From the NCBI RefSeq assembly GCF_008831545.1, contig NZ_CP044523.1, forward strand, positions 620,001 to 684,000: DNA of 64,000 nucleotides, given 5' to 3'. How positions within the stretch are numbered: position 1 is the first letter of the stretch; each line of letters starts with the position of its first letter. The notes under the pieces are model-generated. The model did not search any database. It saw nothing but the letters and a program-made list of their open reading frames with translations, and had not been told where the DNA came from. Positions 6,420 to 64,000 of the stretch are shown here, one piece after another. The position numbers and the translations under genes are program-made. Origin of the DNA: Halorussus halophilus (GTDB lineage Archaea > Halobacteriota > Halobacteria > Halobacteriales > Haladaptataceae).

Positions 6420-6662
6420 GTCGGTCGTTCGAGTCGGTCGTCTCGGGGGTGGAGGCGAGCAGAAAGGGTCTTTTCACTGGGGTGGGTAGCGAGGGGTGTG
6501 GCCGATGACGAGGCACCCAACCCGAACCGGACTCGGCACCCGGTGATGACGAACCCTATGAGTGCCGAGGCCGCCCTATTACCGACTCTTCGTTTCCCTC
6601 ATTCTCTGGGGAAGGATAGGTTGTAGACAGCAAACGCATACAACATCGTTGAGCTAGGACTA

Positions 6663-30450: not shown

Positions 30451-32286
30451 CTACCGCCCAGTAAAGTGCGGATGCTTGCTCACGTACTTCGGTAGATACC
30501 GTTTCTTCTTCGGCAACTCGCCCACGTCTTCCTCGATTTCACTCTGCAAGGTATCGAGGGCCATCTCTCGCTCGTCGTCCTCACCGCGAACGTTGACCTT
30601 CAGCGTCTCTCCCTCTATTTCGCGGTCGCCGACCACCGCGTAGTAGGGCACCCAGTCGGTCTCTGCCTTGGCGATTCGCTTGCCGACCGATTCGTCGCGG
30701 TCGTCTACGTCTGCGCGAATCTCCGCCAATTCGAGTTCGGACACCAAGTCGTCGCAGAACTCGATATGCTCCTCGCCGACCGGCACGAATCGGACCTGCG
30801 TGGGCGAGAGCCACGTCGGCAGTCGGGGCGCATCTTGTTTCGCGGCTTTTTCGAGCAAGGCGGCCACGACGCGTTCGATGCCCCCCGAGGGCGAGTAGTG
30901 TAGAATCGGCGGATGGCGTTGCTCTTCTCCATCGCTGTAGGTGATATCGAATCGCTCGGCGCTCTCGACGTCGATTTGCACCGTCGGGTTCTCGATGGGG
31001 CGGCCGAGTCCGTCGATGGCGGCGAAGTCGATTTTCGCAGACCAGTAGTGGTGGCGCTCTGGGAGGATTTCGAGTAAAACTGGCACGTCGAGGTCCGAAA
31101 CGAGCGATTCTATCCAGCCTTCGTTGTCGTCGTGGAAGTTTTGGGTCACGCGGAGTGCGGGAACGTACTTGACGCCGAGATCGTCGCTCGTCTGCATCGA
31201 GAGCTTCGCTTGGCGTTCCAGTTCCTCGCGGGCCTGCGCGATGTCCTCCGTCGCGGTGTGCATGTCCGGCATCGTGAACGCCCGCTGGCGCTTGAGGCCC
31301 ATCACCTCGCCCTTCTGCTCGCGGCGGAACGAGTAGGTGGACATCTCGTAAATCCTGAGCGGCAAGTCGTTCACCGAGATGTGCATGTCCCGCATGATGG
31401 AGAACTGGCCGAAACAGGCCGCGAACCGGAGCATCATCCGGCGGTCGCCCGAGTCGAAGCGGTACTGGCGCTCGCCGAACTTCTCGCTGTGTTCCCGAAC
31501 CGCTCTGACTCCGAGGTCGTACATGATGGGCGTCTCGACGGGCATCCCGCCGTACTCGACCACGAGGTCGTTGACGTACTCCATCAAGCAGTCCCGGACG
31601 AGTTTCCCGCGGGGGTACCACCGCAGGTTCCCCACGTCGCTGAGTTGGTCGTAGCCGACGAGTTCCTTCTCCGCCATCAGTTCGACGTGCGGCGGTTCTT
31701 CGCCCTTGATCGCGGTTTCGCCCTCTACTTCGTCGGCGATGAACGCCCGCAGGTCCTCGCTCACCTCTGGCTTGGCGTCGAGAGGGTCTTTCCGGGTACC
31801 ATCGGGGAAGAGAACCTGCCAGTCGCTCGGCGCGGGTGATTCGGCTTCTCCTTCCTCCTCGCGTTCGGGCGTGACGTGCCGCGAGAGTTCCGAGAGCGGA
31901 TGGCCCTTGCAGGACACCTCGAAGGCTTTGTACCACCCGAACGGCGCGCGGAGGACTTCGAACTCCGATTCGAGCGCACTTTCGAGATTCCGGAGGACGG
32001 TCTTCGCGCTGTCGGGGCCGGCGAGGTCTTCGCTCAGGTGCGCGTACGGGTAGAGGACGACGTTCCGGGTGTTGAGTTGGTCGGCCACGTCCCGCAGTTC
32101 GTCGGTAGCGTTCTCCACCACGGCGTCGAGGTCCGACTCGTCCTCGCGCTCGACGCTGACGAAGACGGTGACGCAGTCTTCCATCCGACCCTCCATCGGG
32201 ACGCCCTCGGTCTCGGCGAGGTCCTCACCCGCCTCCGTGGTCGTCTCGAATTCGAGGTAGTCGGAGTGGATGAACAACAATCGCAT
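30451..32286 (-). CDS. thrS: Threonyl-tRNA synthetase, archaeal type
   Basis: The 611-residue enzyme charges tRNA-Thr. MRLLFIHSDYLEFETT opens the archaeal N-terminal editing domain (related to D-aminoacyl-tRNA deacylase), which removes mis-charged serine (about residues 1-145). The class II catalytic core follows, with motif 1 around YGGMPVETPIMYDL, LRFAACFGQFSIMRDMH, motif 2 TYSFRREQKGEVMGLKRQR and motif 3 HYSPSGGIERVVAALL. The C-terminal anticodon-binding domain starts at TQVRFVPVGEEHIEF. The ATG at 32286 matches the conserved start. A longer frame back to 32577 translates repeat DNA and is rejected. Confidence 0.96.
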   Translation of the reverse strand: MRLLFIHSDYLEFETTTEAGEDLAETEGVPMEGRMEDCVTVFVSVEREDESDLDAVVENATDELRDVADQLNTRNVVLYPYAHLSEDLAGPDSAKTVLRNLESALESEFEVLRAPFGWYKAFEVSCKGHPLSELSRHVTPEREEEGEAESPAPSDWQVLFPDGTRKDPLDAKPEVSEDLRAFIADEVEGETAIKGEEPPHVELMAEKELVGYDQLSDVGNLRWYPRGKLVRDCLMEYVNDLVVEYGGMPVETPIMYDLGVRAVREHSEKFGERQYRFDSGDRRMMLRFAACFGQFSIMRDMHISVNDLPLRIYEMSTYSFRREQKGEVMGLKRQRAFTMPDMHTATEDIAQAREELERQAKLSMQTSDDLGVKYVPALRVTQNFHDDNEGWIESLVSDLDVPVLLEILPERHHYWSAKIDFAAIDGLGRPIENPTVQIDVESAERFDITYSDGEEQRHPPILHYSPSGGIERVVAALLEKAAKQDAPRLPTWLSPTQVRFVPVGEEHIEFCDDLVSELELAEIRADVDDRDESVGKRIAKAETDWVPYYAVVGDREIEGETLKVNVRGEDDEREMALDTLQSEIEEDVGELPKKKRYLPKYVSKHPHFTGR

Positions 32287-32337
32287 ACGAGGTAGGGCGG
32301 TGGCGGCGGGCAAAAGCGTGCCGGGAGTGTGAGACCA

Positions 32338-32405
32338 CCTTTTTTCTCGTCGGGTGGCTGTGCGCGCTTCGCGCGCTTTGCCACCTCTCCTCCAAAAAAT
32401 CTGGA
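32338..32405 (-). repeat. Repeat family B module
   Basis: On the minus strand this reads ATTTTTTGGAGGAGAGGTGG, then a hairpin whose arms are GCGCGC either side of GAA, then CCACCCGACGAG and AAAAAAGG. It aligns with 44700-44766, which has the same outer blocks (TTTTTTGGACGAGTGGTG ... CACC ... AAAAAGG) but an unrelated hairpin between them. Confidence 0.65.
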
Positions 32406-32415
32406 CCAAAAAACC

Positions 32416-32459
32416 GACGCAGAAAAATCTGGGCGCAATGCGCCCAGATTTACTGCGTC
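32416..32459. repeat. Repeat family D: near-perfect 44-base palindrome
   Basis: GACGCAG (32416-32422) pairs with CTGCGTC (32453-32459). AAATCTGGGCGCA (32425-32437) pairs perfectly with TGCGCCCAGATTT (32439-32451) around one central base. A related palindrome lies at 44645-44689. Confidence 0.85.
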
Positions 32460-32480
32460 TCTGTACGTTAGTGCGATTTC

Positions 32481-32884: not shown

Positions 32885-35110
32885 ATGAACGAAGTTCAAC
32901 TAGAGGTGGCCAAGGCGTACCCGAACGACTCGGGACGCGGTATCGCACGCCTCGACCCCGACACGTTGCTTCATCTGAAGCTCAGTCCGGGCGACATCAT
33001 CGAGATAGAAGGCAGTGACACGACCGCCGCGAAGGTGTGGCGCGCAGACCGCCAAGACTGGAACACCGACACGGTCCGCATCGACGGCTTCACGCGCCAG
33101 AACGCCGACGTGGGCATCGGCGAGCGCGTCGAAATCCGGAAGGCAGAGGCCGAGAAGGCAGACAAACTAGTCCTCGCGCCACCGGAGGAAGCAAGCGTCC
33201 AGTTCGGTTCGGACGCCGCGGGCATGGTCAAACGCCAGATTCTCAAGCGCCCCGTGGTCGAGCGCGACATCGTGCCGGTGATGTCCAGCACGAACCACCC
33301 GTTCATGCGCTCGCCGGGACAGGCGATTCCGCTCATCGCAGTCGAGACCGAACCGGAAGGCGTCTGTCTCATCACCGAGGACACCGAAGTCGAACTGCGC
33401 GAAGAGCCGATTTCGGGCTACGAGAAGACCGGCGGCGGCATCACCTACGAGGACATCGGCGGTCTCGAAAGCGAGATTCAGCGCGTCCGCGAGATGGTCG
33501 AGTTGCCGATGAAGCATCCCCAGATTTTCAAGAAACTGGGTATCGAACCGCCGCAAGGGGTTCTGCTTCACGGCCCGCCCGGTACGGGTAAGACCTTGCT
33601 CGCCAAGGCAGTCGCCAACGAAACTTCTGCCAGTTTCTTCTCTATCGCTGGCCCGGAGATTATCTCGAAGTACTACGGCGAGTCCGAACAACAGCTCAGA
33701 GAAATCTTCGAAGACGCGACCGAAGAGTCGCCCTCCATCATCTTCATCGACGAACTGGACTCCATCGCGCCCAAGCGTGAGGACGTGACCGGCGAAGTCG
33801 AACGCCGCGTCGTCGCCCAGTTGCTGACGATGATGGACGGCCTCGAATCGCGCGGGCAGGTCATCGTCATCGCGGCGACGAACCGCGTCGATTCGGTGGA
33901 CCCCGCGCTCCGGCGTCCCGGCCGCTTCGACCGCGAAATCGAAATCGGCGTCCCCGACGAGAAGGGCCGCGAGGAGATTCTCCAGATTCACACCCGTGGC
34001 ATGCCGCTGTCGGACGACGTGGCGCTCGACTCGCTGGCAAACGACACCCACGGCTTCGTCGGTGCCGACATCGAGAGCCTGACGAAGGAAGCCGCGATGA
34101 AGGCATTGCGGCGTTACCTCCCGGAAATCGACTTGGACGAGGAGGACATCCCGCCGAGCCTCATCGACCGGATGATAGTCAAGCGCCAGGACTTCAACGG
34201 CGCGCTCAACGAGGTCGAACCCTCCGCGATGCGGGAGGTCTTGGTCGAGTTACCAAAGATTTCGTGGGACGACGTGGGCGGTCTCGAACAGGCCCAACAG
34301 GAGGTCAAAGAGAGCGTCGAGTGGCCGCTGTCTGACCCTCAGAAGTTCAAGCGGATGGGTATCAACCCACCGAGCGGCGTCCTGCTCTACGGCCCGCCCG
34401 GCACGGGGAAGACCCTGATGGCGAAAGCCGTCGCCAACGAGACGAACGCCAACTTCATCTCGGTCAGAGGCCCGCAACTCCTCAGCAAGTGGGTCGGCGA
34501 GTCCGAGAAGGCCATCCGCCAGACGTTCCGCAAGGCGCGACAGGTCTCCCCGACCGTCATCTTCTTCGACGAGTTGGACAGCCTCGCGCCCTCGCGGAGT
34601 CAGGAAGTCGGCTCCAACGTCAGCGAGCGCGTGGTCAACCAACTCCTGACGGAACTCGACGGCCTAGAAGAGAAGGGCGACGTGATGGTCATCGGCGCGA
34701 CCAACCGCCCGGACATGATAGACCCCGCACTGATTCGCTCGGGTCGCTTCGACCGACTGGTCATGATCGGCCAACCTGACGAAGAAGGCCGCGAGCAGAT
34801 CCTGAAGATTCATACCGACGACACGCCGCTCTCGGCGGACGTGAGCCTCCGCGAACTCGCCGAGATCTCGGACGGCTACGTCGGCAGCGACCTCGAATCC
34901 ATCGCCCGCGAGGCGGCAATCGAGGCGCTCCGCGAAGACGACGAAGCCACGGAAGTCGAGATGCGTCACTTCCGCTCGGCGATGGAGAACGTCCGGCCGA
35001 CGATTACGGAAGACCTGCTCGACTACTACGAGCAAATCGAGGAAGACTTCAAGGGCGGCGGCTCCGAACCTCAGCAGGGTCGGCGCGGCGGTCGGATTGG
35101 CTTCCAATGA
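32885..35110 (+). CDS. cdc48: Cdc48/VAT-type AAA+ ATPase (double AAA)
   Basis: The 741-residue protein unfolds substrates for the proteasome or for complex disassembly. The N-terminal double-psi-barrel substrate domain (about 1-180) is followed by two AAA modules. D1 has Walker A GPPGTGKT (residues 230-237) and Walker [14 protein letters not shown]2 has Walker A at 503-510 and Walker [13 protein letters not shown]. Arg-finger regions ([21 protein letters not shown]) are in place. The C-terminal tail ([18 protein letters not shown]) is Gly/Arg-rich. The start [19 protein letters not shown] is the typical archaeal one. Haloarchaea often carry several Cdc48 paralogues, so the exact role is not fixed. 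Confidence 0.95.
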
Positions 35111-35277
35111 AACTTTTGCTGCGGTCGTGAGCGCCGAAGGCGCTCACTCCCTGGCAAAACTTTCATGAAAATCACGTCGTCACCCTCTCCGTCGCGCCAA
35201 AGGCGCTCCTCCGAGGGTTCCTCGGACGCGCTCACTTCGACGGCGCGCTCTGCGCGCCGCCTTCGTTCGCGGTAGAA
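35111..35277 (-). repeat. Repeat family B, copy abutting the Cdc48 stop
   Basis: Read on the minus strand this gives ACCGCGAACGAAG, a hairpin (GGCGCGC / GCGCGCC), AGGAACCCTCGGAGGAG, then GGGTGACGACGTGATTTTCA, a GTTTTGC box, a perfect 9-base hairpin (arms GTGAGCGCC 35127-35135 and GGCGCTCAC 35139-35147 on the plus strand) and GCAAAAGTTT. These blocks match 63021-63160 in order. The element begins directly after the Cdc48 stop codon. Confidence 0.72.
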
Positions 35278-44644: not shown

Positions 44645-44689
44645 GACGCGGAGAGATCTGTGCGCGGTGCGCGCAGATTTCTCCGTGTC
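44645..44689. repeat. Repeat family D, second palindrome
   Basis: GACGCGGAGA (44645-44654) pairs with TCTCCGTGTC (44680-44689) with one mismatch, and ATCTGTGCGC (44656-44665) with GCGCGCAGAT (44669-44678) with one mismatch. Its base order matches the palindrome at 32416-32459 at most positions. It lies directly before the family B module here. Confidence 0.75.
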
Positions 44690-44766
44690 CCTTTTTTCAT
44701 CGACGTTTTTTGGACGAGTGGTGCGCGAGGGCCTCTGGCCCTCAGCGCACCCGAGTCTAAAAAGGG
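44690..44766 (+). repeat. Repeat family B, copy abutting the KaiC-like gene stop
   Basis: It reads TTTTTTCATCGACGTTTTTT, GGACGAGTGGTGCGC, a hairpin (GAGGGCC / GGCCCTC), GCGCACC, and ends in TAAAAAGG a few bases from the stop of the convergent KaiC-like gene. TTTTCATCGACGTTTTT also occurs in the copy at 63105-63119. The outer blocks match 32338-32405. Confidence 0.7.
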
Positions 44767-44771
44767 TCGGT

Positions 44772-46103
44772 TCAGAAGATATTCGCCTGCCGGTAGACGC
44801 TGATGCCCTCGTTCGTAATCGAATAGGGCTTTATCTCCCGCGAGTGGTTCGCGTCCCGAATCTTCTGAATCTCGACGGCCAATCGGGTCTCCCGGAAGTC
44901 GTCGCTAGACCGGATGTACCGCAGGACGAACACCGCGTCCACGAGGTACTCGATGATGCCGTGACGGGAGGCGTATGGGTTGCCCTCGCTGGCTTCGCTG
45001 GTGAGCATCGTCGTCACGCCCGCTTCCTTCAGACTCTTCGTAAAGTCGTACACCTCGTTCCGGCGCACGGCTTGGTTGTCGTACATCATCTCCAACAGCG
45101 ACACGGAGTCCAGCACGAGGCGAGTGGCACCGAAATCCTCCACGAGTCGCGGCAGGTCGTTGCGAATCGAGGTGAGACTGTTCGCCATCTCGATGGGGTC
45201 CAAGTCGATGATGGCGAGTTGGTCGTTCTCCTCGTACTCGTCGAACTCCCAGCCCTTCTCTGTCGCGGAGTTGAGGATGCGGTCGTGACTCTCTTCGAGC
45301 GTGATGTACACCGCGCTCTCGCCCCGTTCGAGTGCTTCGTGGAGAAACTGTAGTCCGAAGGTGGTCTTCCCCGTCCCCGCAGAGCCGATGGTAGTCATCA
45401 GCGTTCGCTCGGGAACGCCACCTTGAATCATACTGTCGAGGCCCTCGATGCCGACGTCGATACGCGGGATGGACGACTCGAACTCCTCGTCCTCGGCGAA
45501 CTCCTCTTGGAATGGCGCACCGCCGTCACCGCCGCGGTCGCCGAAACCGCCACCCATACCGAACTCCGCGCCGCCGTCGCCGCCACCCATGCCGAAGTCG
45601 TCGCCCGAATCGCCGCCGAATCCGCCGCCGTCGGTGCCTCCGCCACCACCGAACCCGCCACCGCCGCCGGGGGCGTTCTCGAACGCGCTAGCGAAGTCGT
45701 CTTCGAAGAGGTCGTCGTCCTCGTCGGGACCCTCGTACGGGTCTGCGTCGGCGAACCCGCCCGCGGCGTCCTCCGAGTCGGACTGGTCAAGACCCGCGAA
45801 CTCCTCGGCCGCCGCGTCGTGATCGAACCCTGCGTCCGGGTCGGGAGCGGGGTCCGAGTTGGTATTGGGACTCGCGTCGGCGTCTGCGAAGTCGGGCGAC
45901 TCGTCTTCGTCGGCGTCGTCGCTCGTCACGTCTGCGTCCGCTGACGCGTCGTCTTGGTCCGCGACGTTCGCCGTCTCTTCGTCGTTCGCCGCCTCCTCGT
46001 CTTCGTTGAGCGCGCGCTCGAACCAATCGTCGTCGTCCGTCACGGGGGCCACCTCCTCGGCCGAGCGCAACTGGTCATGTGCAACGTCTCGAAGGGCCGC
46101 CAT
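44772..46103 (-). CDS. KaiC/Rad55-like RecA-fold ATPase with long acidic and Gly-rich N-terminus
   Basis: The protein is 443 residues. The N-terminal half (about 1-200) is disordered: Asp/Glu-rich, then a Gly-rich tract ([19 protein letters not shown] and onwards with FGMGGGxG repeats). The C-terminal 240 residues are a single KaiC-type domain: [19 protein letters not shown], Walker [32 protein letters not shown] (catalytic Glu pair) and [13 protein letters not shown] (Walker B). Single KaiC-domain proteins in haloarchaea are probably signalling or regulatory ATPases. The start at 46103 is 50 bases from the divergent NAD kinase gene. Confidence 0.85.
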
Positions 46104-63020: not shown

Positions 63021-63160
63021 TTTTCACCGCGAGCGAAGCGAGCGGGCCAAGGAACCCTCGGAGGAGGGCGCTTTGTGGCCTCCGTAGGGGGTGACGATGT
63101 GATTTTCATCGACGTTTTTATCGAGCGGCCGCACTGCGACCGCTCGCAATAAAAAGGTCG
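63021..63160 (+). repeat. Repeat family B, copy abutting the tRNA-Leu fragment
   Basis: The blocks in order are TTCACCGCGAGCGAAGCGAG, AGGAACCCTCGGAGGAGG, GGGGTGACGATGTGATTTTC, ATCGACGTTTTTATCGAGCG, the hairpin CGAGCGG / CCGCTCG (63122-63146) and AATAAAAAGG. The same blocks occur in the same order in the element after the Cdc48 gene (35111-35277, opposite strand), with a different hairpin. The end lies 2 bases from the tRNA-Leu 3' end. Confidence 0.72.
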
Positions 63161-63162
63161 TA

Positions 63163-63217
63163 TGCGAGGGATGGGATTCGAACCCATGGACGTCTACACG
63201 AGCGGGTCTTAAGCCCG
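63163..63217 (-). tRNA. 3' part of tRNA-Leu(UAA), probable attachment-site remnant
   Basis: Read on the minus strand, 63217 to 63163 gives the anticodon loop CTTAAGA (anticodon UAA), most of its 3' stem, a class II variable arm, the T-arm ATGGG TTCGAAT CCCAT and the acceptor strand CCCTCGCA. The matching 5' acceptor (GCGAGGG) and D-arm are absent upstream: the sequence before 63217 pairs in the anticodon stem for only four of five bases and not at all in the acceptor stem. So only the 3' part is conserved. A truncated tRNA 3' end is what integrase-type elements leave at the far end of an insertion. Confidence 0.72.
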
Positions 63218-63530
63218 GCAGCCATATCCGCAGAGCTGACATGACGCCCAACGTCATGGGCGTCCTAGTGCTATCACTTTCCCGGTGAGCACCCATATTC
63301 ACGGTATTTCTTGGCCTTACTTGGTCGAATGTGCCCCAACTATATCAAATCCCTTCTAACGCGGGTGTGAGCCACTAACGATTCTCTTTATGCCGAGACT
63401 CCCGATCTGGGAACTCTTTTCTTGTCAGAGAAAATGTTGACCACCGTCTAATCGACCCTTCTCATTTATCGGTTTCCGCTCATATGTAGTAGGTGAAAAA
63501 ACATTTGTCTTTTGAACCATTCTTTCCATT
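63218..63530. other. Gap between tRNA fragment and first island gene
   Basis: This 313-base A+T-richer stretch has no supported gene. It contains overlapping inverted repeats next to the tRNA fragment: GACGCCCA / TGGGCGTC (63243-63250 and 63257-63264) and CATGACG / CGTCATG (63240-63246 and 63252-63258). GTGAAAAAACA near 63494-63504 could be part of the promoter of the following gene. Confidence 0.45.
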
Positions 63531-64000
63531 ATGGTGATTCCCAATATCACAACGGAAACTGCTACTCTTATTTCTGGATTAATCGGCGGAATTGTAGGTT
63601 CCTTAGGGAATTACCTCGTGCAGATTTTAGTGGACAACAAAAGGAGGGAAAGGAGTTCTGATGACCTTCGAGCGTCACTTATTTCTGAAATAGAAAGCAT
63701 GAGAAGTATTGACACCTTTGACCCTAGTTCTCTCGGAGTCCCATCAACAGGATTTGTTCGGAAAAACCTATATGAGAATAGTAGCGATCAAATTGGGCAG
63801 CTGTCACGCTCTGAAGCAGTAGCTGTGATAAACTTCTATGGGGGACTATCTAATCTCCAGTCTCAAGTTGAGGATTTTAAAGACATGAATACATCGGCGG
63901 GTAGATCTTCAAAAAAAGGAAAGAAGAATCAAATGGGAGACATAATTAACCAGCAAATGGCGGACTTAAAAAAAGCCCGTATAGCAGCCCTACAATTACT
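63531..64000 (+). CDS. N-terminal membrane-anchored protein in A+T-rich region (3' end outside window)
   Basis: An open frame from the ATG at 63531 runs unbroken past the window end (156 complete codons). It begins MVIPNITTETATLISGLIGG and has one hydrophobic helix (ATLISGLIGGIVGSLGNYLV, about residues 11-30) followed by a basic stop-transfer stretch (VDNKRRERSS) and a soluble helical region with many Ser, Gln and Lys (NLQSQVEDFKDMNTSAGRSS, KKGKKNQMGDIINQQM). It is less acidic than chromosomal neighbours and uses A/T-ending codons, so it was probably acquired with an integrated element. No family is recognised. Confidence 0.6.
   Translation, partial: MVIPNITTETATLISGLIGGIVGSLGNYLVQILVDNKRRERSSDDLRASLISEIESMRSIDTFDPSSLGVPSTGFVRKNLYENSSDQIGQLSRSEAVAVINFYGGLSNLQSQVEDFKDMNTSAGRSSKKGKKNQMGDIINQQMADLKKARIAALQL

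Follow-up and report, generated by a model that had tools for sequence, protein, structure and literature searches.

What is the repeat that ends beside genes in the window (the whole stretch of 64,000 nucleotides analysed here), and what does it do at these positions? The original prediction had recognised three copies of a repeat family B, each ending within a few bases of the 3' end of a neighbouring gene. All three copies were confirmed with refined coordinates, and so was their position. The copy at 35108-35274 (-) is of type B1 (R1, the covariance model of the repeat B core, E 5.9e-15; fold z -6.6), and its covarying core, the R1 match, is at 35155-35223 (-). It is composed of hairpin 1 (hp1), an AGGAACC/GGTGACG core with hairpin 2 (hp2), a U-tract TTTTC and hairpin 3 (hp3). 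The arms of hp3 are CATGAAAGTTTTGC and GCAAAAGTTTCA, and the TGA stop of the Cdc48-type AAA ATPase gene (32885-35110, +) lies inside the 3' arm, so that the stop is overlapped by the element. The copy at 63026-63160 (+) (R1 E 6.2e-18; fold z -5.0; covarying core 63049-63119, +) ends 2 nt from a tRNA-Leu(UAA) at 63163-63247 (-). The neighbour had been described as a tRNA-Leu 3' end; this end is indeed adjoined, but only the 3' half of the tRNA is present. The third copy, at 44650-44769 (+) (fold z -10.2), contains a hairpin, T6C and a stem-loop between T6 and A5, and a gap of 3 nt separates its end from the stop of a gene at 44772-46103 (-) that is KaiC-like, a name taken from the first sequence-only reading. 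The grouping of the three copies in one family held for their shared 3' module, but this third copy represents a sister subtype, B2, without the AGGAACC core. An additional B2 copy of the same type, absent from the first reading, was found at 32335-32460 (-). It adjoins no gene 3' end; from its own 3' end there are 49 nt to the start codon of the gene at 30451-32286 (-), which is co-directional.

Repeat B has a size of about 130-170 nt and, in B1, possesses three hairpins and a conserved RNA internal loop. From 5' to 3', B1 is composed of ACCGCGAGCG, hairpin 1, GCGAGCGGRCC (or GAGCGAGCGCGTCC), RAGGAACC NNC, hairpin 2, GNN GGTGACGNNGTGN, TTTTC(T/R)T, NNNN[G]TTTTG, hairpin 3 between CCAGCG and CGCAG, CAAAAGG and NNNN. 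The core is RAGGAACC-stem-GGUGACG followed by a tract of U4-5. In B2 the 5' hairpin is different and the AGGAACC core is missing; one long AT/GC hairpin and T6C precede the same 3' module as in B1. Both strands of the copies examined carry tracts of T4-T6: the element's own strand has T4-5C behind the core, and the other strand has CCTTTT at the border. In the window, TTTT begins at just 0.5% of intergenic positions per strand. The examined copies of repeat B possess the mark of archaeal T-stretch terminators, a tract of T4 or more that closes with C and follows a gene. The hairpin cassettes are mosaic: hp3 is identical (66/66) in the copies at 906232 and 3476754, while their hp2 segments are only 21% alike. 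In six home-genome copies the core and the U-tract are separated by an optional cassette of 54 nt. In this cassette (for example at G000:C1 1207931 and 3168487) three mutually complementary segments, GTCTTCC, GGAAGAC and GTCTTCC, follow each other in a layout that recalls alternative hairpins, and relatives show an equal layout with other letters. A variant core in which the internal-loop strands are exchanged (AAGYGACGACC...GGGAGGAACGCC) was observed at L105, L139, L184 and L190, hinting that the loop motif may be the recognised part. As a second widespread form the swapped-strand core was rejected, its exact pattern being found at only 3 places in 18 Halorussus genomes.

The home genome, of 4.45 Mb, possesses about 33 B1 copies and 6 of the sister type. 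A BLAST search with one copy gave 35 genome matches, every one on contig C1, and the gapped 3' stem pattern gave 24 exact matches against none for a reversed control. The repeat family is far above chance expectation. R1 found 40 matches in the home genome at E <=0.1, several of which are second halves of insert-bearing copies; the best matches reach E 8e-19. All 18 Halorussus genomes contain R1 matches, as do 42 of the 117 genomes of the order (14 of 48 genera sampled), and a phylum-wide draw of 148 genomes gave no R1 match outside the order. A DNA pattern was found in Halorussus, Haloprofundus, Halobaculum, Natrinema, Halomarina, Natronorubrum, Halegenticoccus, Haloterrigena, Halobellus, Halobacterium, Halococcus and Halostagnicola. 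A match on a Dermabacteraceae contig (L163) is a chance hit, as the remainder of the element is missing there. Rfam gave nothing at the element, neither in the window at gathering thresholds nor when four of the copy loci were scanned permissively, to E 5. A known Rfam RNA was rejected, since the scans returned just sR-tMet, SRP RNA and one chance-level lncRNA match. No description of repeat B was found in a search of the open literature in which several queries were unspecific. Repeat B therefore appears to be undescribed; by kind it is a dispersed structured repeat or terminator, and there is a real chance that it represents a new class of insulator.

In the seed alignment 98% of cells were paired, with a covariation score of 0.527 against 0.162 after shuffling, and the core covariation of alignment A2 was reached by none of 500 shuffles. 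In alignment A3, which holds 102 sequences from many families and was fitted to the R1 model and hence is biased towards it, core covariation was 0.445 against 0.117 shuffled (0/500), with slid controls at 0.044-0.091; 96.7% of its cells were paired, and both sides had changed in 179 cells against 39 shuffled. Helix 1, beside the invariant GGAACC/GGUGAC, varies among C-G, G-C, U-A and A-U. Of the 102 sequences, 72 have U-G as the middle pair of this helix, where the complement strand would read A-C; an earlier count gave 56 G-U against 2 A-C. The fixed U-G indicates that the element's own strand is the functional RNA, running towards the neighbouring gene. The core thus shows both marks of a structured RNA, covariation above the shuffled control and strand asymmetry. 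Its invariant letters would permit a putative tandem sheared G-A motif (G4A5 with G45A46). The 3' terminal stem covaries too: at position 3 the paired fraction is 0.86 against 0.60 shuffled, with 9 G-U against 1 A-C, and at position 4 it is 0.84 against 0.53. The folds of all three window copies are much better than those of shuffled sequences, with z from -5.0 to -10.2, and the predicted fold on the complement is less stable by 8-18 kcal/mol than on the element strand. Watson-Crick pairs make up nearly all of the hp2 and hp3 stems, where isolated mismatches lack strand bias; isolated mismatches were counted since G-U against A-C counts over whole hairpins are misleading owing to internal loops. 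This symmetry fits a need for the hairpins on both strands or an exchange of whole palindromes as DNA, and it speaks against a purely one-strand RNA, which would not require it.

To analyse placement, genes were called by a codon-usage finder and tRNAs by ARAGORN on stretches of the genome. The 3' end of 20 of the 39 home copies is situated -1 to +8 nt from an opposite-strand stop or tRNA 3' end, against a random intergenic expectation of 1.15% (p 8.7e-29). The genome-wide preference for 3' ends, which had been proposed as a check on the original prediction, is thus borne out. One further copy adjoins the SRP RNA at its 3' end, and in three more the neighbour is a repeated tRNA 3' end (tRNA fragments). 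Almost all other home copies end upstream of a co-directional gene, with NAC- and IscU-like genes as examples; eight listed copies of this class are 33-61 nt before the start codon and others up to 155 nt. About one third of copies are flush with sequences such as TTCGAAATCCTTTTA that resemble BRE/TATA. The original rule, placement at 3' ends of opposite-strand genes, consequently describes one class of copies but not the promoter class. The orientation of the upstream neighbour is about even (towards the element 20, away 19), so the neighbour at the element's 3' end is what counts, and a terminator serving the upstream gene alone was rejected on this basis. Some intergenic regions carry back-to-back copies at both ends (1207931/1208376, 2882839/2883258, 1824097/1824498). 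As both the 3'-end and the promoter class occur, the rule is that the element points its 3' end at a transcription unit, and does so at either border of that unit.

On balance, we consider it probable that repeat B is a modular RNA-structured transcription barrier or terminator at the borders of transcription units, a reading built on four observed features: the structure, its strand, the T-tracts on both strands and the border placement. Archaeal termination is known mainly in the form of bare T-tracts plus aCPSF1. A polymerase travelling on the element strand would form the core hairpin, meet the T4-5C U-tract and stop before the neighbouring unit, and this stop would spare the neighbouring gene antisense entry or promoter run-through. 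The model assumes a source of RNA on the element strand, and it counts against the model that for half of the copies no gene on this strand reads into the element and that no promoter was found upstream. On the other strand, the T-run right past the stop codon or tRNA end would end the gene's own transcript, and at promoter copies it would end upstream-antisense transcripts leaving the promoter. Hairpins hp1, hp2, hp3 and the optional 54-nt cassette would be interchangeable parts, swapped between copies. The role in termination or mRNA 3'-end formation suggested earlier is retained in so far as termination is still the best reading, but in the 3'-end class the covarying core is antisense to the neighbour, so the element is more than the 3' end of that gene's mRNA. 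In Haloferax volcanii, a T-stretch followed by C is a proven terminator, T5C giving 95% termination, and hairpins occur <=10 nt upstream of 503 termination sites (PMC7237163). Repeat B resembles these terminators in having T4-T6 then C or G right after genes and hairpins close upstream. The H. volcanii T5C terminators form no homologous repeat family and possess no conserved structured core, whereas repeat B is a covarying element of 130-170 nt found at both ends of units.

A mobile element had also been offered as an alternative, and a non-autonomous mobile or gene-converted repeat (of MITE, REP or BOX kind) that lands or survives at unit borders and is merely tolerated there is a partial rival, though we regard it as unlikely. 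The turnover of copies among species speaks for it. Copy number ranged from 1 to 35 among congeners in one search, contigs C2-C4 of the home genome had no R1 matches among the matches listed, and the hairpin cassettes are mosaic between copies. At DP2, Cdc48 and SRP RNA, the element is present in about half of Halorussus species and missing in others, with insertion flush past the stop. The 3' end of DP2 (PolD large subunit) carries the standard core in seven Halorussus genomes, the variant core in two and no element in others (such as G004, G007, G014 and G006). As orthologous DP2 sites occur empty, the element is dispensable at any single gene, a point that also counts against the barrier reading. 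Where DP2 is followed by its conserved next gene (MSGHGE...), the intergenic region measures 221-373 nt when filled and 70-140 nt when empty; the element begins 0-4 nt past the stop, and conservation extends to the promoter that lies downstream. The Cdc48 and SRP RNA loci show the same filled and empty pattern. TGA stops lie inside the element arm (TTCCA-ATGAAACTTTTGC, against TTCCAGTAG at empty sites). The recurrence of the element at the same housekeeping genes in several species, on the other hand, speaks for the barrier reading. Against mobility, no transposase gene was noted beside the copies whose neighbours were examined, and no full-length near-identical pair was seen. No target duplication was seen at the congener sites, where the empty loci have diverged so far that an alignment does not reach the junction. 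Stop codons, tRNA ends, SRP RNA and BRE/TATA have no evident common target sequence. The core covariation across haloarchaeal families, the fixed U-G and the invariant GGAACC/GGUGAC imply selection on RNA. Mobility accounts for turnover and mosaicism, but not for RNA covariation or flush placement at unlike borders. Both readings may be combined in a once-mobile element retained where it insulates.

Like MITEs, repeat B is short, non-coding, multi-copy and present or absent by species, but no transposon partner was noted beside the copies examined, and it shows strong RNA covariation and keeps a fixed border placement; terminal inverted repeats are lacking, as the 5' end ACCGCGAGCG differs from the hp3 stem at the 3' end. 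BOX elements of Streptococcus are modular dispersed repeats with a conserved frame and exchangeable hairpin modules. Repeat B is like them in modularity, and differs in sequence, domain of life and placement rule. With bacterial REP/BIME sequences it shares a dispersed, extragenic, palindromic nature and frequent proximity to stop codons. REPs are DNA palindromes of 20-40 nt (PMC3733652), and no palindromic unit of this kind constitutes repeat B. It is longer and oriented, contains several hairpins and an invariant internal loop of RNA, lies flush with borders and occurs also at promoters, tRNAs and SRP RNA.

A 3'-UTR element of the opposite-strand gene, whose hairpin from the stop codon would end the mRNA, protect it, or slow ribosomes as E. 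coli REPs near stop codons do, is improbable. In its favour, several copies have a 3' arm that overlaps the TGA stop, the T-run comes 3-12 nt past the stop, and REPs with a stop codon <=15 nt away are reported to affect translation (PMC12306157). Yet tRNA and SRP RNA ends and the promoter copies (about one third) have no stop codon, and on the gene strand the fixed U-G and G-A core would be broken and the predicted fold is 8-18 kcal/mol weaker. An antisense or stand-alone small RNA family acting in trans is very improbable: the conserved RNA core with its invariant internal-loop motif would suit it, but hairpin sequences are exchanged freely, position is bound to borders, and no promoter signal was found upstream, AT content being flat from -90 to the 5' boundary, on which ground an own promoter or sRNA gene was rejected.

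If the barrier reading is true, archaeal genomes would possess a new kind of punctuation, in the form of a repeated RNA-structured border element common to many haloarchaeal genera, and haloarchaeal genetics would gain insulator parts ready for use. Such an element would also raise the questions of what reads GGAACC/GGUGAC, where antisense transcripts stop, and by which route the element is seated exactly at stops, tRNA ends and promoters. More tentatively, such elements could be oriented RNA insulators throughout the haloarchaea, with a tandem G-A, GGAACC/GGUGAC loop motif possibly bound by a dedicated protein or by aCPSF1/FttA, isolating units both ways and spreading by hairpin-cassette swaps and exact re-seating at stop codons, tRNA ends and core promoters; this broader proposal is doubtful at present.

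Some loci show further features beside tRNAs. From G000:C1 915602, 2192059 and 3115607 onwards (L017, L084, L085), repeat B and an intact tRNA-Val, -Ala or -Pro have between them a repeated 3' end of that very tRNA, along with a shared module carrying AGTCGCATGC and GACGTCT and then a further hairpin. The repeated tRNA end and the shared module possibly represent a tRNA-targeting miniature element. In the window, the region 63163-64000 contains only the 3' half of tRNA-Leu(UAA) and then AT-rich DNA, while congeners L076 and L082 have an intact tRNA-Leu beside the corresponding element. The 3' half (63163-63247, -) is probably an attachment-site remnant, and together with the AT-rich DNA it probably marks the scar of an integrated mobile element extending past the window. 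Elsewhere in the window, positions 6500-6572 (+) match the sR-tMet C/D box RNA, a guide of the tRNA-Met intron type.
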